From contig QGVD01000006.1 in NCBI GenBank assembly GCA_003242685.1, positions 20,175 through 84,174 on the forward strand: 64,000 bases of DNA, read 5' to 3'. The notes below the pieces were generated by a model. That model worked only from the letters and a program-made list of their open reading frames with translations, did no database searches and had not been told where the DNA came from. Numbering within the stretch: position 1 is the stretch's first letter; each line of letters begins with the position of its first letter. The position numbers and the translations under genes were made by a program. Of this stretch, positions 1 to 28,008 are shown piece after piece. The stretch is from Pseudomonadota bacterium (GTDB lineage Bacteria > Pseudomonadota > Gammaproteobacteria > Steroidobacterales > Steroidobacteraceae).

Positions 1-80
1 CTCTGCGCGGGCTGCTGAGCACCCGCCGGAGCGGCTGCGAGCGCGATCGCGGCCAGCATTCCGAAAACGAAGCTGCGCAT
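1..80 (-). CDS. flgI: FlgI P-ring protein, N-terminus only (cut by window edge)
   Basis: Only the first 26 codons are visible. The start at 80 opens a typical Sec signal peptide: a basic residue, a hydrophobic Val-Phe-Gly-Met-Leu-Ala-Ala stretch, and an Ala-Gly-Ala cleavage region followed by Gln-Gln-Pro. FlgI is the periplasmic P-ring subunit. The identification rests on position, directly after flgH with 19 bp between them, as in the usual flgH-flgI order, and on the signal peptide. The P-ring domain itself lies outside the window. Confidence 0.75.
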   Translation of the reverse strand, partial: MRSFVFGMLAAIALAAAPAGAQQPAQ

Positions 81-99
81 GCTCAGGCTCCCTCCCCTC

Positions 100-780
100 C
101 TAGAGAGGCATCCACGGCGAGTTGAAGAATCGCGCCAGCCACCCCGCCCGGTTCGCATCGTGCAGCGACCCGCGACCCGAGTACACGATGCGCGCGTTGG
201 CGACGCGCTGCGAAGAGACGCGGTTGTCCGTGTCGATGTCCTCCGGACGCACATAACCGACCAGTCGGATGATCTCCTCGCCCTGGTTGAGATAAAGGCT
301 CTTCTCACCGCTCACGCGCAGTAACCCGTTCGGCAGCACCTCCTGCACGATCACCGTGATGGCGCCCTGCAGGGCGTTCTGCTGCGTGCTCGTCGCGTTG
401 CCGGAGAACTGGCGCTGCGCGCCTGCGCTGAAATCCGAGTCGACGGTCCGCCCGCCGACGACGGCCGGTGCGAGCTCGATGCTGCTCTGCTTGCCGAACT
501 TCGTATCCGCGCGCTTCGTGGCCTGCGTGGTCTCCTGGAGGATCACGGTGAGCACGTCGCCGGCGCGGAAAGCCCGGCTGTCCGAGACCAGAGTCCAGGG
601 CCGCTCGGGCGCAAAAAGGCCGCCCGAGCTGCCGCCGTGCGCGGTGACGATCGGTGGCAGGGGCGGTGCCTCCGATGCCGGCTGCTGCTTCGGCAGCACG
701 CTGCATCCGGCGAGATGCAGCAGCGCGAAGACGGCTGCCACTGCGGGCGCGGTGCGAAGGGCGGTCCAGCTCACCATCAC
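100..780 (-). CDS. flgH: FlgH, flagellar L-ring lipoprotein
   Basis: FlgH forms the outer-membrane L-ring bushing of the flagellar basal body. The 226-residue product has a lipoprotein signal ending Leu-Ala-Gly-Cys (Cys26 from this start; Met2 is an equally possible start). The family core follows, with 'FRAGDVLTVIL' around residues 71-81 and 'NGLLRVSGEK', 'LVGYVRPEDID' and 'ARIVYSGRGSL' in the C-terminal half. Length is normal. It lies 8 bp after flgG and 19 bp before flgI, inside the flgB-to-flgI operon. Nothing looks degraded. Confidence 0.95.
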   Translation of the reverse strand: MMVSWTALRTAPAVAAVFALLHLAGCSVLPKQQPASEAPPLPPIVTAHGGSSGGLFAPERPWTLVSDSRAFRAGDVLTVILQETTQATKRADTKFGKQSSIELAPAVVGGRTVDSDFSAGAQRQFSGNATSTQQNALQGAITVIVQEVLPNGLLRVSGEKSLYLNQGEEIIRLVGYVRPEDIDTDNRVSSQRVANARIVYSGRGSLHDANRAGWLARFFNSPWMPL

Positions 781-788
781 CGATCCGA

Positions 789-1577
789 TCAGCGGATGGC
801 CTGCGCCAGGTACTGCAGCATGCTGTCCGCAGCGGAGAGCACCTTGGTGTTCATCTCGTAGGTGCGCTGGGCGGCGATCATGTCCACCATCTCCTCGACG
901 ACCTGCACGTTCGAGCCCTCGAGCGCGCCCTGCTTGAGCTTGCCGAGGCCATCCTCGCCGGGCGTTCCTTCCGTCGGCGGCCCGCTCGCCTGCGTTTCCT
1001 GATACAGGTTGTCTCCGAGCGCGAGGAGACCTGCCGGATTGACGAAATTCGCGAGTGTGATCTGACCGATCTGCGCCGGTGTCGAATCGTTCGCCAGCGT
1101 CACCGAGACCACCCCGTTCTCGCCGATCGTGATGCTCGTGGCGTTGGCCGGGATCGTGATGTCAGGCACCAGCGGTAACCCCTGCGCGTTGACCAGGCGT
1201 CCCTCGGCGTTCACCTGGAGCTGTCCGGCGCGTGTGTAGGCGATCTCGCCGCTCGGCAGCTCGACCTGCAGGAATCCCTGCCCGACGATCGCCACGTCGA
1301 GCGACTGGCCGGTGGTCTGCAGGCTTCCGGTGGTGAATACCTTCTGCGTGCCGACCACGCGCGTGCCGTTGCCGAGCTGGACACCGGACGGCACGAGCGT
1401 CTGATCGCCGCTCTGCGCGCCGGGCTGCCGCTCGACCTGGTAGAACAGGTCCTCGAACACGACCCGGTCACGCTTGAAGCCGACGGTATTGACGTTGGCC
1501 AGATTGTTCGCGATGGCCTGCAGCTTCGCATCCTGCGCCTGCACGCCGGTCTTGCTGATCCACAGTGCGGGATTCAT
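789..1577 (-). CDS. flgG: FlgG, distal rod protein
   Basis: FlgG builds the distal rod joining basal body to hook. The 262-residue protein opens with the rod/hook helix and the 'NNLANVNTVGFK' motif (residues 24-35). It contains 'LDVAIVGQGFLQVELPSGE' in the middle and ends with the C-terminal helix 'LEGSNVQVVEEMVDMIAAQR' and following residues, which pairs with the N-terminal helix in the rod. Length and termini are typical. It sits 44 bp after flgF and 8 bp before flgH. Confidence 0.96.
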   Translation of the reverse strand: MNPALWISKTGVQAQDAKLQAIANNLANVNTVGFKRDRVVFEDLFYQVERQPGAQSGDQTLVPSGVQLGNGTRVVGTQKVFTTGSLQTTGQSLDVAIVGQGFLQVELPSGEIAYTRAGQLQVNAEGRLVNAQGLPLVPDITIPANATSITIGENGVVSVTLANDSTPAQIGQITLANFVNPAGLLALGDNLYQETQASGPPTEGTPGEDGLGKLKQGALEGSNVQVVEEMVDMIAAQRTYEMNTKVLSAADSMLQYLAQAIR

Positions 1578-1621
1578 TTCGACGTTGACTCCTGAAAATC
1601 GTTATGGCCGGCGGCGCGTGC

Positions 1622-2350
1622 CTACTCCCGGAGCAGCCGGTTGCCGGCTTCCGCCATGGAATCCGCGGCGCTGTAGAGCTTCATCTGCACCTCGAACTCC
1701 CGGGTCAGGTTCATGGTGGCGATCATCTCTTCGATGGCCGATACGTTGCTGCCTTCGAGGTGACCGCTGCGCACCTGCACGGTGTCGTCGGGCGGCAGCG
1801 CTTCGCCTGAACGCGCGACGATCAGGCCGTCCTCGTTTTTGGTCACTTCATCGGCAGCAGGGCGGACCAACTTGAGCCGGTCGACGGGCTGGAGCTCGGT
1901 CTCCCCCGGAGGCTGGATGGAGATCACACCGTCCGTGCCGATCTCCAGCCGGGTGAACGCCGGGAGCACGATCGGTCCGCCGTCGCCGAGCACCGGACGT
2001 CCGTTCAGCGTCAGTGTGCCGTCGGCGTCCACGCTGAACGCGCCGGAGCGCGTATAGGCTTCGCCGTCACGCCACTGCACGGTGAAGTACCCGGGCCCCA
2101 CGATCGCGACGTCGAGCTCCCTGCCCGTCTCGCGCAGGGGACCCTGCCGCGAGCTCACGACTCCCGCTTCCAGCCGGCTCATGTGCCGCGCGTCGTAGCC
2201 ATAGCCGCGGGTCACGGGCGTGCTGACGGCGAGCTCGAGATCGGCCCTGAACCCCGGCGTGTCGGCGTTGGCCAGGTTGTTGGCGTGCACCTGCTGAGCG
2301 CGCAGTGCGCGCTCGGCGCCGCTCATGACGGTGTAGATCAGCGCATCCAT
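1622..2350 (-). CDS. flgF: FlgF, proximal rod protein
   Basis: A 242-residue rod protein related to FlgG but shorter. The N-terminal helix carries 'HANNLANADTPGFR', the middle has 'LDVAIVGPGYFTVQW', and the C-terminus has 'LEGSNVSAIEEMIATMNL'. The opening 'MDALIYTVMSGAERAL' is typical of FlgF rather than FlgG. It acts in the periplasmic proximal rod. It starts 7 bp after flgE stops, consistent with translational coupling in the flgB-I operon. Confidence 0.95.
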   Translation of the reverse strand: MDALIYTVMSGAERALRAQQVHANNLANADTPGFRADLELAVSTPVTRGYGYDARHMSRLEAGVVSSRQGPLRETGRELDVAIVGPGYFTVQWRDGEAYTRSGAFSVDADGTLTLNGRPVLGDGGPIVLPAFTRLEIGTDGVISIQPPGETELQPVDRLKLVRPAADEVTKNEDGLIVARSGEALPPDDTVQVRSGHLEGSNVSAIEEMIATMNLTREFEVQMKLYSAADSMAEAGNRLLRE

Positions 2351-2357
2351 GATCGCC

Positions 2358-3770
2358 TCACACCGCCTGCATCAGCGTCTGCATCATTTCGTTCTGCGTG
2401 GCGATGACCTTGCTGTTGGCCTGATAGTTGCGCTGGGCGGACATCAGACCCACGAGCTGGGTGGTCAGATCGACGTTCGACTGTTCGAGCGACTGGGCCA
2501 CGAGAGTTCCGGCCACACTCTCGCCCGGCGCCGAGTACAGGGGCGTGCCGGAAGCGTTCGAGCTCTTCCACGCGGTATCGCTGATCGGCACGAGAGCGTC
2601 CTCGTTCGGGAACGTCGCGAGCGCAATCGTTCCGACCCGCTGCTTCAGCCCGTTGCTGTAGACGGCCATTACTCCGCCGTCCTCCTCGATCTGCACGCCG
2701 TTCAGCGCACCCGAGGCGTAACCGTCCGCGGAGTTGACATAGGTAGCGCTGCTGCCCGCGAACTGGGTCGTACCGGTGTAATTGACCCCGATGGCGAGAG
2801 GATTGGCGCCCGCCGGCGTTCCGAGATCGAGATTGACGAGCGGCACGGAGGCTTCCCAGTCGGCCGGCGACGGATAGGGTCTCGGCGCAACGGGCACACC
2901 ATTTACCGTGCGGATCTGGCCGTCGGGAGAGAACGTGATGACGGCAGAATTCGAGGGCGCGACCGCAGTTCCCGCGTACGTGACCTCCCAGAGCTCCGGC
3001 GTCGAGGTGGCCGGGTCCGCCGGGATGTAAGTGATCGTGATGCCCGGGACCGACGCCAGATAGCTCGGATCGCTTGCCGTGCGCACGGTCCACGGAGAGC
3101 CGTCGACCGAGACGCCGGTGTTCGGCAGGAGATCACCGTCGAACGCGTAGTAGACCGTCACTTCGTTCGCGCCGGACTTCACGAAGTACTGCGTGACGCT
3201 GTGCCTGGCGCCGAGCGAGTCGTAGACGACAGAGACGGCGGAGCTGTTGTACGTCAGCGGGTCGTCCTTGTTGAACGCCACGGTGCGCACGGCCCAGTCG
3301 GCGGAGAAGTTGCCGAGATACTGCAGCCGCTCGCTCGCCTGCGCGGGGATCTGGCCCATCGGCACGACGAGGTCGCCCATGGGACCCAGGCCGGCATCGT
3401 CCTCAGTTGCCGCGAAGCCCTGGATCCTGCGCCCGAACGTGTCGACGACGTAGCCGTCCCTGTCGACCGAGAAGATTCCGACGCGGGTGTAGACCTCCGC
3501 CCCCGAGGAGTCGCGAGCGACGAAGAACCCCCGCCCCTGAATTGCGGCGTCGAGGCTGCGGCCGGTGCTGATCACGTTGCCGCCGAGCTCGATGCTCTGC
3601 GTCAGGGAGGCGACCTCCGTTCCTGTCGGCTGGGTTCCCGCGTACACGGCCGCGAAGTTGGCGCGGCTCGACTTGAAACCGATCGTCGCGGAGTTCGCGA
3701 TGTTGTTGCTGATGGTGTTCAGCTCGGTATTGATCGCGTTGATTGCGGAGAGCGCGATGTTGAAGCTCAT
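2358..3770 (-). CDS. flgE: FlgE, flagellar hook protein
   Basis: FlgE is the subunit of the flexible hook, exported by the flagellar type III system. The 470-residue protein has the hook N-terminus 'NNIANSATIGFKSSRANF' near residue 25, the central hook domains, and a C-terminal helix with 'LMSAQRNYQANSKVI' shared by the rod/hook/HAP family. The central part is low in charge and rich in Ser, Thr and Asn. It begins 48 bp after flgD ends. Its final length would be set by FliK; two FliK-like genes are in this window. Confidence 0.96.
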   Translation of the reverse strand: MSFNIALSAINAINTELNTISNNIANSATIGFKSSRANFAAVYAGTQPTGTEVASLTQSIELGGNVISTGRSLDAAIQGRGFFVARDSSGAEVYTRVGIFSVDRDGYVVDTFGRRIQGFAATEDDAGLGPMGDLVVPMGQIPAQASERLQYLGNFSADWAVRTVAFNKDDPLTYNSSAVSVVYDSLGARHSVTQYFVKSGANEVTVYYAFDGDLLPNTGVSVDGSPWTVRTASDPSYLASVPGITITYIPADPATSTPELWEVTYAGTAVAPSNSAVITFSPDGQIRTVNGVPVAPRPYPSPADWEASVPLVNLDLGTPAGANPLAIGVNYTGTTQFAGSSATYVNSADGYASGALNGVQIEEDGGVMAVYSNGLKQRVGTIALATFPNEDALVPISDTAWKSSNASGTPLYSAPGESVAGTLVAQSLEQSNVDLTTQLVGLMSAQRNYQANSKVIATQNEMMQTLMQAV

Positions 3771-3818: not shown

Positions 3819-4490
3819 TCAGCCAGCGGAAGCATTCGCGGGCGCGTCGAAGCCCGTGATCGCCGTGGACGGAATGCGGCCGAGATGGCTCACGTCGACC
3901 ACGACTCCTTCGGCCGACAGGCGCACGCTGCGCAGCGTGCCGAGCACCTCGACGCCCGGCTCCTCGCCGTTGTCCGTCACGACACGCACTGAATAGACGC
4001 CCGCGGGCAGACCGAGCGCCTGCCGGTCGATCGTGAAAGCCACGTCTCCCGCGGAACGCGCGCCGAGCGCCAGCCGGCGCTGCACGCCTGTCTCGCTTTC
4101 GAGCACGAGCGACACGTCGGCGCTCGCGTTCGCGAGCGTGAAGCGCCCCTGCACGGGCTCGTCCTCGAGGATGACCCGCTCCGTGCGGACCGCGACCTGC
4201 GATCCGACCCGGCCGCCGAGCGCCAGCACCTGCAGCCCTTCGAGCATCGCGGCGTTCGCGCTGTTCTGGCGGATGAGCGCCTCGAGCGACTCGACCTGGC
4301 TGAGCTGCGTGAGCTGACTGATGAACTCTCCGGGATCGGCGGGCTGCAGCGGATCCTGGTTGCGGATCTGCGCCACGAGCAGCGTCGTGAAGAGCTGCGA
4401 GATCTCGCCGTTGGAACCGATTGCGTTTTTCGCCGTGCCGGCCGTTGCGGCAGCCGTGGCCTGCGTAGCCGTGGTGATCATCATTCTCAA
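3819..4490 (-). CDS. flgD: FlgD, hook-cap / hook assembly scaffold
   Basis: FlgD caps the growing hook and is needed for FlgE polymerisation. The 223-residue protein carries the diagnostic N-terminal motif 'QDPLQPADPGEFISQLTQLS' (about residues 44-63) and a C-terminal Ig/Tudor-type beta domain with 'GVYSVRVVTDNGE'. A Thr/Ala-rich leader of about 30 residues precedes the cap motif, as expected for an exported substrate. Its ATG overlaps the flgC stop by 4 bp (ATGA), implying coupled translation. Confidence 0.94.
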   Translation of the reverse strand: MRMMITTATQATAAATAGTAKNAIGSNGEISQLFTTLLVAQIRNQDPLQPADPGEFISQLTQLSQVESLEALIRQNSANAAMLEGLQVLALGGRVGSQVAVRTERVILEDEPVQGRFTLANASADVSLVLESETGVQRRLALGARSAGDVAFTIDRQALGLPAGVYSVRVVTDNGEEPGVEVLGTLRSVRLSAEGVVVDVSHLGRIPSTAITGFDAPANASAG

Positions 4491-4912
4491 CCTTCTCCCA
4501 GCTTGAGCAGCGCCTGCTGCATCGTCTTCACCCGCTGGAGCACCTCGACGTTCGTCTCGAAAGCGCGCGCCGCCGACATCATGTCGGTCATCTCGGCCAC
4601 GGGATTGACGTTCGGGTAGAAGACGATGCCGTTCTCGTCGGCGAGCGGATTGTCCGGCTCGTACACCTGACGCACCGGTTCCGTGCTCTGCACGACGTCG
4701 AGCACCTGTACGCGTGCTCCGGGCAGCGTGCCGTCCGCAAACGCTGCACGCTCGTACACGGCGGCGAACACCGGCTTGCGCGCGCGATAGACCTCCGCCT
4801 CGCTCGACGCCGCAGTGCTGGCGTTCGCCAGATTGCTGGCGATGGTGTTGAGACGCACGCTCTGCGCGTTCATCGCCGATCCGGCGATCTGAGAGATGCT
4901 CTTGAACGACAT
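4487..4912 (-). CDS. flgC: FlgC, proximal rod protein
   Basis: FlgC is a proximal-rod subunit. I chose the ATG at 4912, giving 141 residues beginning 'MSFKSISQIAGSAMNAQSVR', because it matches the family length and start and has an AGGTGAGC Shine-Dalgarno stretch overlapping the flgB stop. An in-frame ATG at 4948 would lie inside flgB. The motif 'IASNLANASTAASSEAEVYR' and the C-terminal 'EMTDMMSAARAFETNVEVL' are typical. The stop overlaps the flgD start. Confidence 0.95.
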   Translation of the reverse strand: MSFKSISQIAGSAMNAQSVRLNTIASNLANASTAASSEAEVYRARKPVFAAVYERAAFADGTLPGARVQVLDVVQSTEPVRQVYEPDNPLADENGIVFYPNVNPVAEMTDMMSAARAFETNVEVLQRVKTMQQALLKLGEG

Positions 4913-4919
4913 GCTCACC

Positions 4920-5288
4920 TCAGCCTTCGATGACCTTGGCCAGTCCACGCAGCTTCATGCCGATGAACGTGAGGCTGGTCTGGAAATCCAGGGCGTTCTG
5001 CGAGAACTCCGCCTGCTCGACGCCGAGCTCGACGGTATTGCCGTCCTGCGACGGATGGTGCGGCACGCGATAGAGGAGCTCCGGCGCACCGTCGTCGAGG
5101 GCGAGCGCGGCGTCACCGGCACCGTCGGCCAGTGCGCGCTCGAGACTGGCGGCGAAGTCGATGTCCCGCGCCTGATATCCCGGCGTGTTCACGTTGGCGA
5201 GATTCGACGCCAGAATCTTCATCCGTTCCGCGCGCAGCCGGAGCGCATCGCCGTGCATTCCGAGTACCTTGTCGAAGTTGATGGCCAT
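4920..5288 (-). CDS. flgB: FlgB, proximal rod protein and first gene of the rod/hook operon
   Basis: FlgB is the membrane-proximal rod protein. The 122-residue product begins 'MAINFDKVLGMHGDALRLRA', matching the family start closely, and carries 'LASNLANVNTPGYQARDIDF'. The start codon is therefore secure. This makes the junction with flgA odd: the flgB ATG, read leftwards at 5288-5286, shares two bases with an ATG read rightwards at 5287. There is no intergenic space for a flgB promoter, so it must lie within the flgA coding region. Confidence 0.96.
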   Translation of the reverse strand: MAINFDKVLGMHGDALRLRAERMKILASNLANVNTPGYQARDIDFAASLERALADGAGDAALALDDGAPELLYRVPHHPSQDGNTVELGVEQAEFSQNALDFQTSLTFIGMKLRGLAKVIEG

Positions 5289-6096
5289 GGTTCAGTCGCT
5301 CCGTAGAAAACCTTCGTTCCGTTTCGCCCCGGTGCTGGCGGCCCTCGCGTCCGGCGCCGCGGTTGCCGCCGAGCCGTTCCGCGCAGAGCTCGAAGCCCGC
5401 GTCGAGGCAGCGGCACGCGCCCACCTGCAGGCCGAGGTCGAGCGCGCCGGCCTGCGCGAGCCGTCCGTGGAGGTCGAGGTGCTGCCGCGCGACCGCAACG
5501 GCGCGCCGCGCGGCTGCCCGCAGGAAGTCGAGATCACGGCGCTCGATACGCGCTTCGCCACCCGCATGCGCTTCGCGGCCGTCTGCCCCGGCGAACAGGG
5601 CTGGCGCAGCGAGTACGTGGTGCGCGGGTCCGTCACGGCGCTGGTCGTCGTCGCGACCACGGGCGTACGCGCCGGCGAGCCGCTCGTGGAAGAACAGCTC
5701 GCGCTCGAGCGGCGCGACGTGAGCGGAGTGGCAGGTGCAGTCTCGGACATGCGCCGCGTGGTGGGTCTGGCGAGCCGCCGCGCGCTGCGCGGCGGCCAGG
5801 TGGTCAGCGAACGCTGGCTGATCCAGCCCGTGCTGGTGGAGCGCGGCGATTCGGTAACGATCGTCGCCCGCAACGCAGGCATCGAGGTCAGGGTTCCGGG
5901 AGAAGCACTCGAGAGCGGCCGCAGAGGCGAGATCGTGCGCGTGCGCAACACGGCGACCGAGCAGGTCATCCGCGCCCGCGTGGTGGAGAAAGGCACAGTC
6001 GAACCGGCCGAGCTGCCCAAGACTCACTCCTCGCCCGCCTCGGGCAGTCCGATGGCGCGGACCTGCCGTGCGAGACGCTCGAGCTTTTCCGCGTAA
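5281..6096 (+). CDS. flgA: FlgA, P-ring assembly chaperone
   Basis: FlgA is the periplasmic chaperone for P-ring (FlgI) assembly. A signal peptide (Arg-Arg-Lys, then a hydrophobic core ending 'GAAVAAE') precedes an N-terminal FlgA domain and the C-terminal SAF/beta-clip domain ('TTGVRAGEPLVEEQLALERR', 'LASRRALRGGQVVSERWL', 'IVARNAGIEVRVPGEALESG'). The usual FlgA end is near 'ARVVEKGTVE'; about 28 further residues overlap the convergent muramidase gene by 73 bp. Start is 5281 or 5287. Both overlap the divergent flgB start, and no other start would keep the basic n-region. Confidence 0.93.
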   Translation: MAMVQSLRRKPSFRFAPVLAALASGAAVAAEPFRAELEARVEAAARAHLQAEVERAGLREPSVEVEVLPRDRNGAPRGCPQEVEITALDTRFATRMRFAAVCPGEQGWRSEYVVRGSVTALVVVATTGVRAGEPLVEEQLALERRDVSGVAGAVSDMRRVVGLASRRALRGGQVVSERWLIQPVLVERGDSVTIVARNAGIEVRVPGEALESGRRGEIVRVRNTATEQVIRARVVEKGTVEPAELPKTHSSPASGSPMARTCRARRSSFSA

Positions 6097-6797
6097 TCCG
6101 GATCGGTCGCGTAGCCGCCGCGCGCCAGCGCACGCGCGAACGCGACGGCGTCCTCACCGACGCCTGGAAGCTCCCGATAGCGATTGCTCTCGCCGAGCAG
6201 TCGCGCGTAGTCGGCAAAGGCCGCCATGGCGTCGGGGTAGCTGCGGAAGATCTGCGGCCTGCGCACGGGGAGACCCTCCTCGTACTCCGTGGTCATCGCC
6301 CGCACGACTTCACCGCGCCAGCCGCTTCCGGCCTTGATGCCGAAGAAATTGAACGAATCGCGATCGCCGAACCCCATCGGTCTGTGCGCACCCCACCCCG
6401 ATTCGAGCGCGGCGTGCGCGATCACCAGCTCGGGCGACACGCCGAGCCGCGCAGCGGCCTCACGGGCAAAGGGCGCGATCGAGGCAACGAAAGCGCGCTG
6501 CGCTTCGGGAGTCGTCCGGGAGACGCGTCCCGCCTCCGGTGGTGAGGCCGCGCCGATAGTGTTCCTCGCACCCTCGTTCCACAGCATGCGGGCACGTCGC
6601 ACCGCGCCTTCCGCGCTCAGCGCCATCCCGGACGAGCGATCCGAGCCCGTCGCGATGAACTGCTCGATCTCGCGGCGCAGCTCCCGGAACAGATTCGTGA
6701 ATCCACCCGCGGATGCGCCGGACGTGGCAGCGGGCAGCCGTGCGCCGCGCTCGACGGCGGGGAAGGACGCCGGTGCGAAACTCTCAGCGCGGAGCAT
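6024..6797 (-). CDS. FlgJ-type flagellar muramidase lacking the rod-cap domain
   Basis: The 257-residue protein has a glucosaminidase/muramidase domain from about residue 98 to 245, with the expected catalytic Glu132 in 'AHAALESGWGAH', and downstream 'FFGIKAGSGW', 'FRSYPDAMAAFADY' and 'YATDPDYAEKL'. In two-domain FlgJ this domain follows an N-terminal rod-capping domain. Here the first 95 residues are low-complexity and do not resemble that domain, and I see no signal peptide. It probably cuts peptidoglycan for rod or hook passage. It is the last gene of the fliD-to-flgN operon, overlapping flgN by 14 bp. A rod-cap FlgJ may lie beyond flgI, outside the window. Confidence 0.85.
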   Translation of the reverse strand: MLRAESFAPASFPAVERGARLPAATSGASAGGFTNLFRELRREIEQFIATGSDRSSGMALSAEGAVRRARMLWNEGARNTIGAASPPEAGRVSRTTPEAQRAFVASIAPFAREAAARLGVSPELVIAHAALESGWGAHRPMGFGDRDSFNFFGIKAGSGWRGEVVRAMTTEYEEGLPVRRPQIFRSYPDAMAAFADYARLLGESNRYRELPGVGEDAVAFARALARGGYATDPDYAEKLERLARQVRAIGLPEAGEE

Positions 6798-7484: not shown

Positions 7485-7521
7485 ATCCACACCTCGTGAT
7501 CTCGTACGCATGGCTGCCGCC

Positions 7522-19448: not shown

Positions 19449-19491
19449 AACCTGAGTCACACCTGTCCTCGCAAAGTACAGGTCGCCTCCG

Positions 19492-19707: not shown

Positions 19708-19746
19708 AGCTCGCGTTGACATCGATTGCGGCGCTCTGCATTGACA

Positions 19747-21048: not shown

Positions 21049-21818
21049 GAGCACCGCTCCCCGCGCGTGGCGCCGCATGCGGCATCGTCATCGCGCTGGG
21101 CACATTCTTCGCCATCCTCGTGCCGGCCGTGAGCCCTGCGGCCGAGATCGGAATCGTCGGCACGACCGGCGGCGGCGGCACGACGGAGCTCACCGTCAAG
21201 ACGCAGCTCTTCGTCATCCTGACGCTGCTCGGGCTGCTGCCCGTGCTGACGCTCATGATGACGAGCTTCCTGCGCTTCGTGATCGTGCTCTCTCTCCTGC
21301 GCCAGGCGCTCGGCCTGCAGCAGGGCCTGCCCAACCGCGTCGTCACGGGAGTCGCGCTCATCCTGACGCTGCTCGTGATGCGCCCGATCGGCGTGGAGAT
21401 CTGGACCGAGGCCCTCGTGCCGTACGAGCGCGAAGAGATCGGCCTGCAGGACGCACTGGTCATCGCCGAAGCGAAGATCTCGCGCTTCATGCTCGCTCAG
21501 ACGCACAAGGGGGCCCTCGCCCAGATCTCGCGTCTCGCCGGCGAGGGTGAGGTCGCCGATCCCGCGGATCACAACTTCGCGGTCAAGGCGTCGGCGTTCG
21601 TGCTGAGCGAGCTCAAGACCGCCTTTCAGATCGGCTGCATGCTGTTCGTGCCGTTCCTCGTCATCGACCTGGTGGTTTCGTCGGTGCTGATGGCCATGGG
21701 CATGATGATGCTCTCGCCTCTCGTGATCTCGCTGCCCCTCAAGCTCCTGCTCTTCGTGCTGGTGGACGGCTGGACGCTCACCGTCGGCACGCTGGTGAGC
21801 AGCATACAGGCCTACTGA
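21045..21818 (+). CDS. fliP: FliP, export gate protein
   Basis: FliP is the core of the FliPQR export gate. The 257-residue protein starts with a signal-peptide-like segment (residues 10-34), then TM helices including 'QLFVILTLLGLLPVLTLMMT', 'FLRFVIVLSLLRQALGLQQG', 'FVLSELKTAFQIGCMLFVPF' and 'ISLPLKLLLFVLVDGWTL'. These segments are highly conserved in FliP. It follows fliN with a 4-bp overlap and precedes fliQ by 17 bp. Confidence 0.97.
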   Translation: MRAPLPARGAACGIVIALGTFFAILVPAVSPAAEIGIVGTTGGGGTTELTVKTQLFVILTLLGLLPVLTLMMTSFLRFVIVLSLLRQALGLQQGLPNRVVTGVALILTLLVMRPIGVEIWTEALVPYEREEIGLQDALVIAEAKISRFMLAQTHKGALAQISRLAGEGEVADPADHNFAVKASAFVLSELKTAFQIGCMLFVPFLVIDLVVSSVLMAMGMMMLSPLVISLPLKLLLFVLVDGWTLTVGTLVSSIQAY

Positions 21819-21835: not shown

Positions 21836-22108
21836 ATGGTAACCCCCGACGTCGCCGCCGACGTGATCAGCCGCAGCCTGCGGCTCGTGATGCTGATCGT
21901 GAGCGTGCTGCTCGTACCGGGCATGCTCGTCGGCCTGCTGATCGGCCTGCTGCAGGCCGCCACGCAGATCAACGAGCAGACCCTGAGCTTTCTCCCGCGT
22001 CTGCTCGTGACCCTGCTGGTGATCGCACTGACCGGACACTGGCTCACGCGCACCCTCATGGACTTCTGCGTGGAGGCGTTCAGGGGCGCGGCCACGCTCA
22101 CCGGATAG
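21836..22108 (+). CDS. fliQ: FliQ, export gate protein
   Basis: A 90-residue protein with two TM helices and the family pattern: 'MLIVSVLLVPGMLVGLLIGL', then 'LQAATQINEQTLSFLPRLLV', then 'TGHWLTRTLMDF'. FliQ wraps the FliP-FliR core of the export gate. Length and order are standard. It lies 17 bp after fliP and 19 bp before fliR. Confidence 0.95.
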   Translation: MVTPDVAADVISRSLRLVMLIVSVLLVPGMLVGLLIGLLQAATQINEQTLSFLPRLLVTLLVIALTGHWLTRTLMDFCVEAFRGAATLTG

Positions 22109-22127: not shown

Positions 22128-22895
22128 ATGGACGCCGTTCTGCTCGATCTGCCGGGGCTGCTCATGAAAGTGTGGTGGCCGTTCTGCCGCGCCCTCGGCC
22201 TGCTGAGTGCCGCGCCGTTCGTCGGCGAGGCCATGGTGCCGATCTCCGCGCGCGTGCTCCTCGCCCTCGTGCTCGCTCTCGTGATGCTGCCCTTCGCGAC
22301 GCCCGCCACCGAGATCGAGCCGCTGTCTCTGCACGCCGCTCTGGTCACCGCCGAGCAGGCGCTGATCGGGTTCGGCATCGGTATGGCGTTTCACCTCGTC
22401 ACCTCCGCCCTGATGGTGCTCGGCTACGTCCTGTCGTCGCAGATGGGCCTCGCCATGGCCCTGATGAACGATCCGGTGAACGGCACGTCTTCGGATGTGG
22501 TGTCCGTGCTGCTGTACATACTGGGCGCACTGGTGTTCTTCGCGATCGACGGTCACATCGTGCTCGCGCAGATACTCGGCGCGAGCTTCCGCAACTGGCC
22601 GGTGGGCGGCGGACTCGGATTCGGAACCTTCGAGGCGATCGCGTATGCCGTCGGCTGGGCGCTCGCCGCGGCCGTGCTGCTGGCCCTGCCCGTCGTCTTC
22701 TCGGCGCTCGTGGTGCAGCTCGGCTTCGGCTTCCTGAATCGCATCGCTCCGGCGCTCAATCTCTACTCACTCGGCTTCTCGGCCATCATCGTCTTCGGGA
22801 TCTTCGTGCTCGGATGGCTGGTGCGCCACGTGCCGGAGCACTACGTGAACATGACCGGGCGGGTGCTCGAGCTGCTGCGTCCGGTCACGCGGTGA
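22128..22895 (+). CDS. fliR: FliR, export gate protein
   Basis: A 255-residue integral membrane protein with six or more hydrophobic segments. Family signatures include 'FCRALGLLSAAPFVGEAMVP', 'EQALIGFGIGMAFHLVTSAL', 'LSSQMGLAMALMNDPVNGTS' and 'QLGFGFLNRIAPALNLYSLG'. FliR closes the FliP5Q4R1 gate and contacts FlhB. It ends 7 bp before the flhB start. Confidence 0.95.
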   Translation: MDAVLLDLPGLLMKVWWPFCRALGLLSAAPFVGEAMVPISARVLLALVLALVMLPFATPATEIEPLSLHAALVTAEQALIGFGIGMAFHLVTSALMVLGYVLSSQMGLAMALMNDPVNGTSSDVVSVLLYILGALVFFAIDGHIVLAQILGASFRNWPVGGGLGFGTFEAIAYAVGWALAAAVLLALPVVFSALVVQLGFGFLNRIAPALNLYSLGFSAIIVFGIFVLGWLVRHVPEHYVNMTGRVLELLRPVTR

Positions 22896-22902
22896 GGTGC
22901 CC

Positions 22903-24045
22903 ATGGCCGAACCGTCCGAGGACAGCGGAGAGAAGCGCGAGAAACCGTCCGCGCACAAGCTGCGCAAGGCGCGCGAGAAGGGTCAGGTCGCGCGCTCCCG
23001 CGACTGGGCGACGGCGGTCGGCATTCTCGTGTGCCTGCAGCTCATCGTGCTCCTCGTCCCGGGCTATCTGCAGGACTTCCGCCGGCTGTTCGCCCAGGCG
23101 TTCGCGCCGCTCTTCGGCGAAGGCACGCTCGAGAACGTCTGGTCCGGCCTCTTCCCGGCGACCCTGCTGCTCTTCGCCAAGATCACACTGCCGCTCTTCG
23201 CCGTCCCGCTGATCGTGGCGATCGCTTCCCTGTTCCCGGGCGGGTGGGTCCTGACGGCCTCGCCGCTCGCGCCCCGATTCGAACGGGTGAATCCTCTCGG
23301 GTACTTCAAGCGCCTGTTCCAGCCGAAGCACGTCGCGGACACGGTGATGGCCGTGCTCAAGGCCCTCACGCTGATCGCCGTGCTCTATCACGTGGTGCGC
23401 GCCGGGCTCGGGGATTTTCTGCGGCTGCAATCCCTGCCGCTCGAGAGCGCGATCGCCCGCGGTGCCCGTCTGATGTTCGAGGGAGCGATGACGCTCACCG
23501 TCGTGTTCATCGTATTCGCCCTGATCGACCTCCCCGTGCAGCGTCTCGTGTTCCTGCGCAGCCAGCGCATGAGCAAGCGCGAGGTCAGAGAAGAGCTCAA
23601 GTCGACCGAGGGTCGCCCGGAAGTACGCCAGCGCATCCGCCAGCTCCAGACGCAGCTCGCGCGCCGCGCTCTGCGCAGGACCGTCCCGACGGCCGACGTG
23701 GTCATCGTCAACCCGGAGCACTACGCGGTCGCGCTCAAGTACGACGAGCGGCGCGCCGAGGCGCCGTTCGTCGTGGCCAAGGGCGTCGACGAGATGGCGC
23801 TCCATATCCGCGAGATCGCTCTCCAGCACGGCGTGGAGGTCGTCTCACTGCCGCCGCTCGCGAGAGCCATCTACAACACGAGTCAGGTGAACCAGCAGAT
23901 TCCCGCGGCCCTGTACCGGGCCGTCGCACTGGTGCTCGCCTATGTGCTGCAGATCCAGGCGTTCCGCGCGGGCAGACGCGCGCAGCGCCCGGAGCTTCCG
24001 GCGGATCTCGCCATCCCTGAACACCTCACGACGAGTCCTGCATGA
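22903..24045 (+). CDS. flhB: FlhB, export substrate-specificity switch protein
   Basis: FlhB sets which substrates the export gate accepts and switches after autocleavage. I prefer the ATG at 22903 with a GAGGTG ribosome site over the GTG at 22897. The N-terminus 'KREKPSAHKLRKAREKGQVA' is typical, four TM segments follow, and the autocleavage tetrapeptide is Asn-Pro-Glu-His at residues 270-273 (canonical form NPTH; the catalytic Asn and Pro are present). The tail is of normal length. It overlaps flhA by 4 bp. Confidence 0.96.
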   Translation: MAEPSEDSGEKREKPSAHKLRKAREKGQVARSRDWATAVGILVCLQLIVLLVPGYLQDFRRLFAQAFAPLFGEGTLENVWSGLFPATLLLFAKITLPLFAVPLIVAIASLFPGGWVLTASPLAPRFERVNPLGYFKRLFQPKHVADTVMAVLKALTLIAVLYHVVRAGLGDFLRLQSLPLESAIARGARLMFEGAMTLTVVFIVFALIDLPVQRLVFLRSQRMSKREVREELKSTEGRPEVRQRIRQLQTQLARRALRRTVPTADVVIVNPEHYAVALKYDERRAEAPFVVAKGVDEMALHIREIALQHGVEVVSLPPLARAIYNTSQVNQQIPAALYRAVALVLAYVLQIQAFRAGRRAQRPELPADLAIPEHLTTSPA

Positions 24046-26129
24046 GCCCATTGAGACGTCTGTTCGATACGCTGCTGCGGAACCGCGCGGTCGCGCCGGT
24101 CTTCCTGCTCATCATCCTCGCGATGATGATCCTGCCGCTGCCGCCGCTCGCGCTGGACGTCCTCTTCACGTTCAACATCGTCCTGGCGCTGATCGTGGTG
24201 CTGGTGTGCGTGACGGTGCGCAGGCCGCTCGACTTCTCCGTCTTCCCGACGGTGATCCTCGCCGCCACGCTGATGCGGCTCACGCTCAACGTCGCCTCCA
24301 CGCGCGTCGTGCTGCTGCACGGTCACGAGGGCACGGACGCGGCGGGCGAGGTCATCGAAGCCTTCGGTCACGTGGTGATCGGCGGCAACTTCGTGGTCGG
24401 CCTCGTGGTGTTCGTCATCCTGATGATCATCAACTTCATGGTGGTCACCAAGGGTGCCGAGCGCATATCGGAGGTCTCCGCCCGCTTCACCCTCGACGCC
24501 CTGCCCGGCAAGCAGATGGCGATCGACGCGGACCTCAACGCGGGACTCATCAACCAAGAGCAGGCGCAGCGGCGGCGCCGCGAGGTGGCGGCGGAGGCGG
24601 ACTTCTACGGCGCCATGGACGGTGCGAGCAAGTTCGTCCGCGGCGACGCGATCGCCGGCATACTGATTCTTCTCATCAACCTCATCGGCGGCGTCTCGGT
24701 CGGCATGTTCATGCACGACCTGGCGTTCGGCGAGGCCTTCCGGCAGTTCGCGCTGCTCACCATCGGCGACGGGCTCGTCGCGCAGATCCCGGCGCTGCTG
24801 CTCGCGGCCGCCGCCGCGATCATCGTCACCCGGGTGAGCGACTCCTCGGGCGACTTCGAGCGGCAGGTCGGCGCACAGCTCCTCGCCACGCCCGGAGTCC
24901 TCTATGGAGCCGCCGGCACGATGGTGGTGCTCGGCGCGATTCCCGGGATGCCGTGGCTCACCTTCCTCACCTTCGCCGCAGTGCTCGCGTTCGCCGCCTG
25001 GCGCATGAGCCGGAATCCGCCCGTCTCGGCGAGCGATGCCGCGGCCGCAGAGGCCGCCGTGCTGGCCGAGCAGGTCCCCGAGCTCGACTGGCGCAGCCTC
25101 CCCTTCGTCGAGCCGCTCGCGGTCGCGGTGGGCTACAAGCTCGTCGGGCTCATCGACCCCGCGCAGGGCGCGCCGCTCGTGAAGCGTGTGAAGGGCGTGC
25201 GCCAGAATCTGAGCGAGGCGATGGGTTTCCTGCTCCCGCCGATCGCGGTGCGGGACGACCTTTCGCTCCGGCCTGCGCAGTACGCCATCCTTCTCCAGGG
25301 CACCGTGATCGCTCAGGCGGAGGTCTATCCCGAAAGAGTGATGGCGCTCCCCTCGACCGAAGTCTACGGCGAGGTCGATGGCATTCCCGCCATGGACCCT
25401 GCGTACGGCATGCCCGTCGTCTGGATCGCGCCCGAGGATCGCGCCAACGCGCTCGGGCTCGGATATCAGGTCGTCGATCCCTCGAGCGTGATCGCCACGC
25501 ATCTGTCGAAGGTCGTGCGCGATCACCTGCCGGAGCTGTTGCGCCACGAGGACGTGCCGGCGCTGCTCGAGCGTCTGAGCGCTCTCGCACCCAAGCTCTC
25601 CGCCGCGCTGGACAAGGCGTTCACACACACGCAGCTCCTCAAGGTGTTTCGCCATCTCCTGGCGGACAACGTTCCGCTCAAGGACATCGTGCCGATCGCC
25701 ACCACGCTGCTCGAGAACGCCGAGACGACCAAGGATCCGATTCTTCTCGCCGCCGAGGTGCGCTGCACGCTGCGCCGGCAGATCGTCGCCTCGTTGATCG
25801 GTGAGTCCGCGGAAATGAAAGCCTTCAGCCTCGGAAGCGAGCTCGAGAGCCTGCTGCTCGGTGCGCTCAATCAGGCGAGTCAGAGCGGCAAGATCGCGCT
25901 CGACAACTTCCCGCTCGATCCGAACGTGCTCTCTCAGCTGCAGCAGCACATGCCGGTCGTGCGCGAGCAGATGAAGCAGCAGGGCGCGCCGCCGGTGCTG
26001 CTCGTGATGCCGCAGATCCGTCCGCTGCTCGCGCGCTACGCGCGCCTGTTCGCACCCGGGCTCACGGTGCTGTCGTACAACGAGATTCCCGAGCAGCGCG
26101 AAGTCAGCATCATCGGCTCGCTGGGCTGA
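24042..26129 (+). CDS. flhA: FlhA, export gate ring protein
   Basis: A 695-residue protein with about eight N-terminal TM helices and a large cytoplasmic domain that forms the export-gate ring and docks chaperone-substrate complexes. Signatures: 'RPLDFSVFPTVILAATLMRL' in the membrane part, the FHIPEP motif region 'SARFTLDALPGKQMAIDADL' (residues about 145-164) and 'VLLVMPQIRPLLARYARLF' near the end. It is the last gene of the plus-strand operon. No flhF, flhG or regulator follows it, and its end overlaps the convergent FliK-like gene by 20 bp. Confidence 0.97.
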   Translation: MSPLRRLFDTLLRNRAVAPVFLLIILAMMILPLPPLALDVLFTFNIVLALIVVLVCVTVRRPLDFSVFPTVILAATLMRLTLNVASTRVVLLHGHEGTDAAGEVIEAFGHVVIGGNFVVGLVVFVILMIINFMVVTKGAERISEVSARFTLDALPGKQMAIDADLNAGLINQEQAQRRRREVAAEADFYGAMDGASKFVRGDAIAGILILLINLIGGVSVGMFMHDLAFGEAFRQFALLTIGDGLVAQIPALLLAAAAAIIVTRVSDSSGDFERQVGAQLLATPGVLYGAAGTMVVLGAIPGMPWLTFLTFAAVLAFAAWRMSRNPPVSASDAAAAEAAVLAEQVPELDWRSLPFVEPLAVAVGYKLVGLIDPAQGAPLVKRVKGVRQNLSEAMGFLLPPIAVRDDLSLRPAQYAILLQGTVIAQAEVYPERVMALPSTEVYGEVDGIPAMDPAYGMPVVWIAPEDRANALGLGYQVVDPSSVIATHLSKVVRDHLPELLRHEDVPALLERLSALAPKLSAALDKAFTHTQLLKVFRHLLADNVPLKDIVPIATTLLENAETTKDPILLAAEVRCTLRRQIVASLIGESAEMKAFSLGSELESLLLGALNQASQSGKIALDNFPLDPNVLSQLQQHMPVVREQMKQQGAPPVLLVMPQIRPLLARYARLFAPGLTVLSYNEIPEQREVSIIGSLG

Positions 26130-27024
26130 CGCCGCGCCGTCTGCACGCCGTCTGCAGGGCGATCACCGCCTCTGCCGCCACCCGGTAGAGATCCGCTCCG
26201 GGAGGGTCGGTGGAGAAAGGCGACGACTGCGGCACGGCCGGAATCTCGCGAATGCGGGCGGCAGCGGCTCTGCCCTGCAGGACGCGGGCACGCACGAGTC
26301 GCACTCCGGTGCGCGCGACGGCCGCCGCGATGGCCGGCAGCGAGTCGCGCACGAGCAGCGCAGCGGCCCGCTCCTCGCAGGCCGCCATGAGCTCCGCTCC
26401 GTCCGGCGCCACGTGGAGCTCGAGAACGATCGGACCGAACGTGGGAGACGAAAGCTCGACCTGCAGTCCCATGCGCCGGCGCCGCGTGCGAGCGGCGCGC
26501 GGCTCACGCTCCGGCGCCACTACCAGGCGCAGGAGCAGCGGCATCGGTCCCCATGCCGGTACCGGAAGAAACCAGCTTTCCCCGGGAGACGACGAGTGCA
26601 CAACGACCGTCTCGCGCATCATCGCCGCGAGTGCCGCGGCATCGGGAACGCGCCAGGTGATCTGACGCATCACGGCCGGATCGAGCCGCATGGCCGGCTG
26701 CCGGTTCAGGGCGTTGAAGTCCGGTTCGCTTCGCGCCGGCGGCAGCGCTTCGCCTTCCACCTCGAGCTCGAGCACCGGTTCGTTGGCGACCACCCGTACC
26801 AGAACGGTATCGCCGGCCCGGAGCTGACGGCCGAGCTTTCCGAGCCCCGCCAGGCGCAGCGACAGCCCTCCCGGTGTCGTCGCGATCAGGTCTTCGCCGG
26901 CCGTCTCCTCACACGTGAGGAGGAGCGACTCACCGGGCGCCGGCAGGAACTGCCCTTCCCGGGTGCCCGGCTGCACGGGTCGCGCTCTGACGACGCCGGC
27001 TATGCGATCGACGCTCACGACCAT
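26110..27024 (-). CDS. Second FliK-like (Flg_hook domain) protein
   Basis: A 304-residue protein that I read as FliK-like. Its second half has the Flg_hook pattern: 'QVELSSPTFGPIVLELHVAP', then 'AACEERAAALLVRDSLPAIA', then 'VARTGVRLVRARV', the usual strand-strand-helix-strand arrangement in which FliK proteins contact FlhB. The N-terminal 100 residues form a beta-rich region ('LRAGDTVLVRVVANEPVLEL'), not a Pro-rich ruler. It lies between convergent flhA and the flagellin gene. It could control a second specificity step or be a divergent duplicate; the call rests on pattern only. Confidence 0.6.
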   Translation of the reverse strand: MVVSVDRIAGVVRARPVQPGTREGQFLPAPGESLLLTCEETAGEDLIATTPGGLSLRLAGLGKLGRQLRAGDTVLVRVVANEPVLELEVEGEALPPARSEPDFNALNRQPAMRLDPAVMRQITWRVPDAAALAAMMRETVVVHSSSPGESWFLPVPAWGPMPLLLRLVVAPEREPRAARTRRRRMGLQVELSSPTFGPIVLELHVAPDGAELMAACEERAAALLVRDSLPAIAAAVARTGVRLVRARVLQGRAAAARIREIPAVPQSSPFSTDPPGADLYRVAAEAVIALQTACRRRGVSPASR

Positions 27025-27039
27025 CCCCTGAGGTGCGAT

Positions 27040-27066
27040 GAGCCGGCCGCAGGAGACGGCCGGCTC
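27040..27066 (-). terminator. Hairpin downstream of the flagellin gene (distal)
   Basis: GAGCCGGCCG (27040-27049) and CGGCCGGCTC (27057-27066) form a perfect 10-bp stem with a 7-nt loop, in the spacer between fliC and the FliK-like gene. No T-run follows on the minus strand, so it could act as an mRNA-stabilising 3' hairpin or a weak terminator. Confidence 0.55.
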
Positions 27067-27084
27067 TTCGCGGCGTGCTCATGC

Positions 27085-27112
27085 CGCCGGGCGCATGGTC
27101 CGACACCCGGCG
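27085..27112 (-). terminator. Hairpin downstream of the flagellin gene (proximal)
   Basis: CGCCGGGCG (27085-27093) pairs with CACCCGGCG (27104-27112): 9 pairs including one G-U wobble in the minus-strand transcript, 10-nt loop. It begins 18 nt after the fliC stop and is followed by the hairpin at 27040-27066. Tandem hairpins fit the 3' end of a highly expressed mRNA. Confidence 0.5.
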
Positions 27113-27129
27113 ACATGCTCTCGGGCGCC

Positions 27130-28008
27130 TTAGTGCATCAGCGCGACCACGAGCTGCGACAGGCTGCTGCTCTGCTTCAGAGCCGCCGTGCCGGCCTGCA
27201 TCAGCAGCTGCTTGGCCGTCGAGTTCGCGGTCTCCTGGGCGTAGTCCACGTCCATGATGCGGCCGCGCGAGGCGGTCGTGTTCGTGATCATGTTGCCCAG
27301 GTTGTTGTACACGTGCTCGAGGCGGTTCGAGGCCGCACCGAGCTGCGCACGGATCGCGCCCACCGCGGCGATGGCGTTGTTGATGGTATCGATGATGGCG
27401 TTCGTACCGCCCGTGAGCTCGGTGCCAGTAACACCCGTGTTGGTGTACGTGCCGGCAACCTGATCCAGCGCGGTCGTCAGGGCGGTCAGGCTCGCCGACG
27501 TGTTGACGGCCATCGTTTCCGTCGTGCTCGCGCCGATCTGGAACGTGATGGCGGCGGACAGCAGACCGCCCGAGCCGTCAGTCGTAGTGCCGTCGCTGAA
27601 CAGCCGCTGACCGCCGAACGCGGAGCTGCGGATGATGTTGTTGAGTTCGATGCCGAGCGCGTCGTACTCGGCCTGCAGGGCCGCCCGGTCGGCCGCCGTG
27701 GACGACGCGTTGAACGCCTCGGTCGCAAGGTCCTTCATGCGCAGGAGCACGTTGGTGAGCTCCTGGAAGGCCCCTTCCGCCGTCTGCATCATCGAGATGC
27801 CGTTCTGCGTGTTCTTCTGCGCCACCGTCATGCCGCGCGTCTGCGCCAGCAGTCGAGTGGCGATCTGCAGACCCGCCGCATCGTCCATCGCCGAGTTGAC
27901 GCGGTAGCCCGTACCGAGACGGGTCAGCGACGTGCTGAGCGCCTTCTGCGTGGCAGCCAGTGCATTCTGCGAGGACAGTGCCGCAGCGTTCGTATGAAGA
28001 CTGAGCAT
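27130..28008 (-). CDS. fliC: Lateral-type (LafA-like) flagellin
   Basis: Flagellin, the filament subunit. The start at 28008 ('MLSLHTNAAALSSQNALAA') follows an AGGAGT ribosome site; 292 residues. The N-terminal D0/D1 part has 'AMDDAAGLQIATRLLAQTRG' and 'NGISMMQTAEGAFQELTNVL'; the C-terminal D1/D0 part has 'RAQLGAASNRLEHVYNNLGN' and 'RIMDVDYAQETANSTAKQLL'. 'DDAAGLQIA.RL.AQTRGM' and the short length are closer to lateral LafA flagellins than to polar ones. The central variable domain is short (about 110 residues). The FliS-binding C-terminus is present. Confidence 0.94.
   Translation of the reverse strand: MLSLHTNAAALSSQNALAATQKALSTSLTRLGTGYRVNSAMDDAAGLQIATRLLAQTRGMTVAQKNTQNGISMMQTAEGAFQELTNVLLRMKDLATEAFNASSTAADRAALQAEYDALGIELNNIIRSSAFGGQRLFSDGTTTDGSGGLLSAAITFQIGASTTETMAVNTSASLTALTTALDQVAGTYTNTGVTGTELTGGTNAIIDTINNAIAAVGAIRAQLGAASNRLEHVYNNLGNMITNTTASRGRIMDVDYAQETANSTAKQLLMQAGTAALKQSSSLSQLVVALMH

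Follow-up and report, generated by a model that had tools for sequence, protein, structure and literature searches.

A lateral-type (Flag-2) flagellar locus, nested in the betaproteobacterial lateral branch, is the second flagellar set of a gammaproteobacterium

Introduction

The Flag-2 system of Enterobacterales is described as having 39 conserved proteins, with the regulator LafK listed in its cluster 1 (PMC6993521). Lateral motors are reported to have an indistinct C-ring and no chemotaxis (PMC8042155), and a betaproteobacterium that received its lateral system by transfer was noted by Liu and Ochman 2007, as cited in PMC8042155. The lafA group of Burkholderia dolosa, a species absent from the trees given here, has been placed among betaproteobacterial lateral flagella (PMC5773237). 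In Vibrio parahaemolyticus the lateral fliM operon was reported to be LafK-independent, and a review infers a further regulatory level (PMC3930126), while the lateral cluster of Plesiomonas shigelloides is described as having its own sigma-28 factor and no LafK (PMC11242183). Here we analyse a 64,000-nucleotide stretch of a draft genome (the window; contig C9, positions 20175-84174), which carries most of a flagellar locus. As judged from its genes, this locus is a lateral-type (Flag-2) flagellum whose parts are nested in the betaproteobacterial lateral branch, and it very probably encodes a complete second flagellum of betaproteobacterial ancestry beside a polar-type system linked to che genes and FlhF.

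Results

A flagellar block of 38 genes with conserved order

The lateral block spans about 31.8 kb, from contig position 16376 to window base 28008, and comprises 38 flagellar genes with no other recognisable genes among them. Nearly all were named from Pfam and NCBIfam models; fliT was named by position only, as its open reading frame (ORF) had no match in either collection. Read from right to left, fliC and a FliK-like ORF (both -) are followed by flhA, flhB, fliR, Q, P, N and M (+), then by fliE, F, G, H, I, J, D, S, T, K, L, fliA, motA, motB, flgM, flgN and a muramidase gene (-), flgA (+), and flgB to flgL (-). A sequence-only reading of the window had described flhA-flhB-fliR-Q-P-N-M divergent from fliE-F-G-H-I-J, a contiguous fliD-S-(T)-K-L-fliA-motA-motB group, flgM-flgN near flgA, flgA divergent from flgB onward, and a LafA-like flagellin. 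The gene calls bear all of this out: flhA to fliM lie at 19726-26129 (+), fliE to fliJ at 13980-~19457 (-), fliD to motB with flgM-flgN next to them at 6784-13869 (-), flgA at ~5287-6096 (+), flgB-C-D-E-F-G-H at 100-5288 (-) and the flagellin at 27130-28008. It had also taken the locus to be complete within 1-28008; the stated blocks are all present there, but flgI, the rod-cap flgJ, flgK and flgL continue for about 3.8 kb past the left edge to contig position 16376, and the muramidase and FliK-like genes had gone unlisted. As far as visible, the gene order is the same in all eight loci of the host family (the window and seven other genomes), and therefore it is not a chance reading.

A Pfam search of the predicted ORFs, a few of which were unmatched, gave no fliO, flhF, flhG, fleQ or che gene in the locus or elsewhere in the window, as the sequence-only reading had said of the locus. 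Nor did any of them appear, che and flhF/flhG beyond the left edge included, in the 20 kb to the left of the window, where translations were read by eye. A 2025 preprint names Steroidobacterales among the orders with some FliO-less genomes (PMC12248157).

The locus groups with betaproteobacterial lateral systems

The export ATPase FliI scored 749 bits against the model PRK07196, above the cut-off of 715, compared with 559 bits for the polar FliI of the host; we take PRK07196 and PRK12427 to be lateral-type models. For flagellin, MotB and FliA the best models were LafA, LafU and PRK12427, each under its cut-off, the flagellin reaching 303 bits with the curated LafA model NF038071 against 365. 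In a tree of 93 FlhA rows the window FlhA fell into a 24-row lateral clade with Vibrio, Pseudomonas, enteric and betaproteobacterial sets (Shimodaira-Hasegawa-like approximate likelihood ratio test, SH-aLRT, 100), and within it into an 11-row betaproteobacterial branch that includes the host family (SH-aLRT 100); Endozoicomonas and one Oceanospirillales metagenome-assembled genome (MAG) stood between lateral and polar sets. This tree left out 20 of 113 loci, namely 18 redundant Pseudomonas-like rows, the fragment L034 and, for its length, L068. A nine-gene tree with 35 rows joined the eight family loci in one group (100) inside a 16-row branch with eight betaproteobacteria (100). Lateral flagella of Chromobacterium, Massilia, Rugamonas, Roseateles, Pseudorhodoferax, Ralstonia and Pandoraea belong to the same clade in both trees. 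Approximately unbiased (AU) tests rejected the eight betaproteobacteria as a clade without the host family (p 1.7e-5), a forced grouping of seven Burkholderiales (p 0.0014) and a grouping of the host family with polar sets (p 2.6e-6). FlhA thus did not fall among polar sets, and the FliI score and both trees uphold the lateral-type assignment of the sequence-only reading.

By contrast with the flagellar genes, the RpoB tree grouped the host and other members of its order with gammaproteobacteria and away from the six betaproteobacteria included (sequences from 26 of 28 genomes, the Rhodoferax and Rhodanobacter genomes having no RpoB match). Because the family nests in the betaproteobacterial branch although its RpoB is gammaproteobacterial, the block was most likely acquired horizontally from that branch by an ancestor of the host family. 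The nearest FlhA proteins among the 80 named loci kept from at least 597 candidates, a scan that may have missed closer relatives, were those of a Rhodoferax MAG (77% identity), Rugamonas (72%), Massilia (71%), Pseudorhodoferax (71%), Roseateles (70%), Chromobacterium (70%) and Ralstonia (67%). The closest systems are betaproteobacterial ones, not those of Vibrio or enterics. The earlier view that the host lies far from the best-known lateral lineages thus holds for the host but not for its flagellar genes. A supposed lateral system in the relative G011 was set aside, as an N-terminal FlhA fragment was 61-64% identical, yet fliN-P-Q-R-flhB only 34-49%.

A che-linked polar-type system on another contig

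FlhA occurs twice in the draft genome (3.81 Mb, 160 contigs, 96.6% complete, contamination 0.47%), the other copy lying on a contig of 40 kb (C111). On this contig CheB, CheD, MotD, FlhF and FliM exceeded their NCBIfam cut-offs; CheW, CheZ, a methyl-accepting chemotaxis protein and a MinD-like protein in the position of FlhG were best matches below cut-offs, and the remaining genes were named by reading translations. Because this che/FlhF-linked polar-type system is present, the flagellar set of the window is the secondary one, which settles what the sequence-only reading had left open, namely whether these were the only or the second flagella, and answers the genome search that it had proposed. 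Two other family genomes (G012, contig C17, and G021, contig C31) hold a second FlhA 47-48% identical to the window FlhA.

Distribution and maintenance in the host family

FliI exceeded the lateral cut-off in 8 of 396 genomes sampled from the order, all within the host family and spread over three genera: the window genome, one genome of another genus, and 6 of 12 genomes of genus g4. Five of the seven other family blocks lie on contigs of 0.25 to 1.26 Mb. In a class-wide survey of 143 genomes, a small sample that carries little weight, FliI at an E value of 1e-200 was found only in the window's own genome. The ratio of nonsynonymous to synonymous substitutions for 36 genes compared between the relatives G347 and G349 was 0.00-0.18 with a median of 0.05, and therefore the system appears to be maintained there. 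The block has a G+C content of 68.0%, compared with 66.4% for the rest of the window. The lateral flagellin of G003 is on a separate contig, and G346 and G347 carry a tandem pair of lateral flagellin genes (L185:6365-8353 and L189:6224-8284). No description of lateral flagella in this host lineage was found in the open-access literature, so that the present locus extends lateral flagella to it; it also adds another case of a flagellar block of about 32 kb that seemingly moved between lineages, with gene order kept across three genera.

The family loci lack LafK

The window shares its cluster order, flhAB-fliRQPNM / fliEFGHIJ, with Enterobacterales Flag-2 of the Escherichia coli 042 type; the window FliI exceeds the PRK07196 cut-off, and the window FlhA is 59% identical to an E. 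coli copy. The window differs in that LafK lies between lfiM and lfiE there and is absent here; the laf/lfi/lfg arrangement recognised by the sequence-only reading thus stands for the cluster order but not for this regulator. The core genes of the Vibrio lateral (laf) system are also the same, with 62% FlhA identity to V. campbellii, but that system has LafK and, in V. parahaemolyticus, lies in two regions, whereas the window system is one locus. In P. shigelloides, the described lateral cluster of which also lacks LafK, control by polar FlaK (sigma-54) is proposed (PMC11242183), whereas here fliM is preceded by a sigma-28-like site. An E. coli sequence deposited as a plasmid (pHNAH212872-2; L039) has its Flag-2 block among neighbours such as the chromosomal genes fadE and lpcA.

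To define the absence of LafK, the E. coli Flag-2 protein was searched by tblastn in 86 loci, of which 23 had a fliE match. LafK adjoined fliE in all 14 such loci of Vibrio, Grimontia, Pseudomonas, Stutzerimonas, enterics and Endozoicomonas and had no match in 6/6 betaproteobacterial and 3/3 family loci. Two further betaproteobacterial loci could not be judged, as six of eight had both fliE and fliM in view. Stretches of seven relatives, five of them outside the 86-locus set, gave no match either (7/7), so that LafK is absent from all eight family loci. Outside the lateral clade, L116 and L121 gave a LafK-like match, presumably a polar regulator.

Betaproteobacterial lateral loci thus resemble those of the family in the absence of LafK, but their hosts are not gammaproteobacterial, and histidine kinase and response regulator genes lie in or next to the lateral loci of Chromobacterium (L048:12320-14885), Pseudorhodoferax (L072:3460-5539) and Ralstonia (L049:1239-4309), whereas the family loci showed no pair of this kind. 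These pairs may replace LafK in the betaproteobacteria concerned. The Chromobacterium pair is related to that of Pseudorhodoferax, and their regulator has, by reading, an N-terminal helix-turn-helix-like part. In the window a LuxR-type response regulator is encoded 30 kb to the right of the locus (57728-58462). A master regulator FlhC or FleQ was considered for the host and had no domain match in the genome, though the draft may lack the gene. MotY, LafW and LafZ did not turn up in the gene inventory, which involved no direct search for them, and the block has no ORF left over for LafW or LafZ.

A conserved element precedes fliM and a different one precedes fliC and fliD

Alignment of the fliE-fliM gap of the eight family loci revealed one clear block, TAAAGATTT-N11/12-CGATAA/C, before fliM. 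Elements were scored out of 16 against the E. coli sigma-28 consensus and compared with resampled sequences from a first-order Markov model, which are not exact shuffles. The fliM element reached 12-13 of 16 in seven loci, with 0-1 of 300 resamples as good, and the regions upstream of the polar flagellin genes of four relatives also reached 12-13 (0-2 of 200). No such fliM site was found in loci with LafK, except in one Pseudomonas (L053, 2 of 100), or in seven betaproteobacterial loci (best L046, 7 of 100), which sets the family apart from the latter. Neither fliE nor flgB had a promoter element shared by all eight loci, despite high single scores (six for flgB, two for fliE). A stricter pattern, TAAA-N15/16-SCGATA, occurs three times in the host genome versus once for the reversed control; one site precedes the polar flgM and another an ORF resembling a PAS chemoreceptor, and the fliM site of the window (CACGATA) does not fit this pattern.

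Before the lateral fliC the E. coli consensus received no support, as 17 to 300 of 300 resamples were as good in the seven copies. This failure led to a second motif, TTTAAG-N15-GTCGCC, which is shared by lateral fliC (7/7 gene copies from five genomes, 0-3 of 300) and fliD (8/8, 0-9 of 300). In an independent check on four betaproteobacterial flagellins 1, 8, 19 and 68 of 300 resamples were as good, suggesting that the late-promoter motif is shared in part. The lateral and polar FliA proteins differ in a C-terminal segment that we take to be the region 4.2 recognition helix (SEARVCQINK in the window, TESRVCQLHG in the host's polar FliA).

Sigma-54 control of the lateral early genes received no support from a scan of 23 family upstream regions of fliM, fliE and flgB, in which no site stood out (best 32 of 200 resamples), although the scan is insensitive, known LafK loci giving 8 of 200 at best. 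In the polar system of the host, flgB and flgA had clear sigma-54 sites (1 and 0 of 200), and flhA and motA did not (65 and 78).

FliM and the FliK-like ORF

The N-terminal motif of FliM, which we take to be the CheY-binding motif, is absent in all eight family loci and in E. coli Flag-2 but present in the polar FliM of the host. Because FliM lacks this motif and the locus has no che genes, the lateral motor is predicted to be non-chemotactic and not to respond to CheY.

The ORF at 26110-27024 was tried as a second FliK. Five of six aligned homologues matched PF02120 with E values no higher than 1, the lowest being 5e-6 and that of the window copy 0.0014, and a profile comparison with FliK was negative. 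Its predicted structure had a mean predicted local distance difference test score of 56.7, and all matches in PDB had E values above 0.02, with the PscP SS domain at rank 7 and the FliK C-domain at rank 22. The ORF was therefore kept as FliK-like. It also lies between flhA and fliC in the lateral loci of Massilia and Rugamonas; it is missing from G004, and the contig of G394 stops inside flhA, so that its presence there is not readable.

Discussion

The secure part of these results is a known kind of flagellar system in a new lineage. The block would build a probably proton-driven, non-chemotactic flagellum, likely used for movement on or near surfaces, which agrees with what is reported of the C-ring and chemotaxis of lateral motors (PMC8042155). 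Its fliC and fliD would be read by the locus's own FliA through TTTAAG-N15-GTCGCC, whereas the switch and export operon fliM-N-P-Q-R-flhB-flhA would start from the conserved sigma-28-like site. As this site resembles the element before polar flagellin genes, polar FliA may switch the lateral system on, leaving the filament genes to lateral FliA, a division that we propose with less confidence. On this model, which we regard as possible but less likely than not, a canonical sigma-28 promoter at the fliM operon compensated for the lost LafK, so that completion of the polar hook, with release of polar FlgM and free polar FliA, would trigger the second flagellum, whose filament genes would fire through a separate sigma-28 factor with its own promoter. 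Two separate sigma-28 regulons would then form one cascade. Because this lineage has no LafK and a single conserved element before fliM, it may help to identify the trigger of a lateral system, since it is the fliM operon that was reported to be LafK-independent in V. parahaemolyticus (PMC3930126).

Support for this rewiring of promoters is mixed, and several observations weigh against it or against the wider reading of the locus. Scores against the sigma-28 consensus did not single out fliM: the window element itself reached 12 and that of G346 only 10, with 137 of 300 resamples as good; upstream of flgB, inside the flgA coding sequence, six of the eight loci scored 11-12 (1-7 of 300), and the window (9) and G004 (8) scored lower; upstream of fliE, the window scored 12 (1 of 300) and G003 scored 11 (10 of 300), without such scores in the other six; and the host's polar flgM, used as a control, reached only 10 (24 of 300). 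The loci that yielded the fliC/fliD motif are also those in which it was scored, and it is absent before four Vibrio-type flagellins (219-248 of 300). As to the trees, the groups compared in the AU tests were named after the tree had been seen, a simpler model was used for the larger tree, a warning of uneven residue composition was raised, and the branch supports are SH-aLRT values from quick searches. The polar flagellin of the host was not found in the draft genome. If the host family is that of Steroidobacter, it also counts that its four described species are reported to have polar flagella or none (PMC5979037).

Two other explanations bear on what starts the lateral genes. A polar-system sigma-54 activator of the FlrA/FlrC type could stand in for LafK and activate the early genes of the lateral system. 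Such a role has been proposed for the polar FlaK (sigma-54) of P. shigelloides, whose deletion is reported to lower lateral genes in a species without LafK in its lateral cluster (PMC11242183). The host genome has 11 places that match LafK, the best of them (49%) just upstream of an ORF read as polar fliF, which suits such an activator; the 23 lateral upstream regions, unlike polar flgB and flgA, showed no outstanding sigma-54 site in the insensitive scan, which speaks against it, and we consider this explanation possible without favouring it. Alternatively, the fliM element may be read by lateral FliA itself or bound by some other regulator, with no polar link. The presence of fliA within the block is in line with autoregulation, and a matrix built from the fliM sites found its best match in each of the eight loci at the fliM site, a result that is circular. 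Against this, lateral FliA would be expected to act on lateral fliC and fliD, which have a different element, and it is the polar flagellins that share the fliM-like one; we hold this explanation, too, to be possible without favouring it.

As regards the origin of the block, a lateral system in the common ancestor of beta- and gammaproteobacteria, kept here and lost elsewhere, would accord with the proposal of a gammaproteobacterial duplication that gave rise to polar and lateral systems (PMC8042155) and with a G+C content near that of its surroundings, which gives no sign of recent arrival. Such vertical inheritance is nevertheless improbable, given that the family nests inside the betaproteobacteria and that lateral FliI is confined to one family among the 396 genomes of the order. 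A binning error, by which the contig came from a betaproteobacterium, might be suspected from the betaproteobacterial affinity of the nearest named relatives among the 80 loci kept and from the fragmentation of the draft into 160 contigs, but is hardly conceivable for an 84 kb contig in a genome of such low contamination when seven other family genomes carry the block, five of them on long contigs. A structure that has stopped rotating and now acts in secretion or adhesion is a further thought, as Flag-2 has been postulated to be a locomotory organ or a secretion system (PMC6993521) and as FliM is short of its N-terminal motif; we judge it very improbable, since genes for MotA, MotB, FliG, rod, hook, cap and flagellin are all present and under purifying selection in two relatives. 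Acquisition of a lateral flagellum from the betaproteobacterial branch remains the reading we prefer.

Features of the locus and its surroundings

The features are collected in Table 1. The muramidase domain of FlgJ is encoded by its own gene near flgN, whereas the flgJ beside flgK is rod-cap only; a separate muramidase gene is present in three of the eight family loci.

Table 1. Genes and promoter-like elements of the lateral locus (window coordinates unless stated otherwise; bit scores are given with model cut-offs).
Feature	Position	Strand	Basis and remarks
flgI, flgJ (rod cap only), flgK, flgL	contig C9 16376-20230, left of window		PF02119, PF10135, PF22638, PF00669; flgL named by reading and position
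flgH (L-ring)	100..780	-	Pfam PF02107 4e-55
flgG (distal rod)	789..1577	-	PF22692, PF06429
flgF (proximal rod)	1622..2350	-	PF06429, PF22692, PF00460
flgE (hook)	2358..3770	-	PF07559 2e-21
flgD (hook cap)	3819..4490	-	PF03963
flgC (rod)	4487..4948	-	PF06429, PF00460
flgB (rod)	4920..5288	-	PF00460
flgA (P-ring chaperone), divergent from flgB	~5287..6096, start inferred inside ORF 5185-6096	+	PF13144 4e-28
Separate FlgJ-type muramidase (glucosaminidase domain)	6024..6797	-	TIGR02541 172 bits, below cut-off 193; PF01832 5e-28
flgN	6784..7212	-	PF05130 2.5e-11
flgM (anti-sigma-28)	7209..7511	-	TIGR03824 42.2 bits, above cut-off 40.75; PF04316
motB / LafU	7522..8445	-	Best NCBIfam model NF005273 LafU 179 bits, below cut-off 383; PF13677
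motA / LafT (MotA1-type stator)	8462..9376, start inferred inside ORF 8462-9685	-	TIGR03818 349 bits, above cut-off 304
fliA / LafS, lateral sigma-28	9409..10125	-	Best model NF009091 (PRK12427) 254 bits, below cut-off 339; TIGR02479 228, above cut-off 190
fliL	10122..10577	-	PF03748
fliK (hook length)	10584..11894	-	PF02120 8e-15
fliT-like chaperone	11798..12094	-	By position; ORF 39-53% identical at same place in 7/7 other family loci
fliS	12087..12473	-	PF02561 7e-32
fliD (filament cap)	12511..13869	-	PF07195 1e-42
Late-promoter-like element upstream of fliD, TTTCAG-N15-GTCGCT	13935..13961	-	Like elements before fliD in 8/8 family loci
fliJ	13980..14435	-	PF02050
fliI (export ATPase, lateral type)	14432..15862	-	NF005535 (PRK07196) 749 bits, above cut-off 715
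fliH	15739..16425	-	PF02108
fliG	16422..17441	-	PF01706, PF14842
fliF (MS ring)	17426..19093	-	PF01514
fliE	19116..19457, start inferred inside ORF 19116-19673	-	PF02049; no lafK between fliE and fliM
Sigma-28-like element upstream of fliM, TAAAGATT-N11-CACGATAC	19681..19707	+	Aligned in 8/8 family loci, weak in G346
fliM, without N-terminal CheY-binding motif	19726..20658	+	PF01052 C-terminal only; TIGR01397 22 bits, cut-off 220
fliN	20662..21048	+	PF01052
fliP, no fliO preceding	21045..21818	+	PF00813
fliQ	21836..22108	+	PF01313
fliR	22128..22895	+	PF01311
flhB	22897..24045	+	PF01312
flhA (lateral clade)	24042..26129	+	PF00771; trees
Second, divergent FliK-like protein	26110..27024	-	PF02120 at 0.0014, below curated cut-off
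fliC / LafA-like flagellin	27130..28008, start inferred inside ORF 27130-28074	-	PF00669; best NCBIfam model NF038071 LafA 303 bits, below cut-off 365
Late-promoter-like element upstream of fliC, CTTAAG-N15-GTCGCA	28077..28103	-	Motif shared with fliD

No tRNA genes were found in the window. To the right of the locus (28024-63879) lie genes for an F420-type reductase, a TauD dioxygenase, a sulfatase, a LysR regulator, two TonB receptors, MFS and AbgT transporters, an AcrB-type pump with its HlyD partner, and the LuxR-type response regulator mentioned above.

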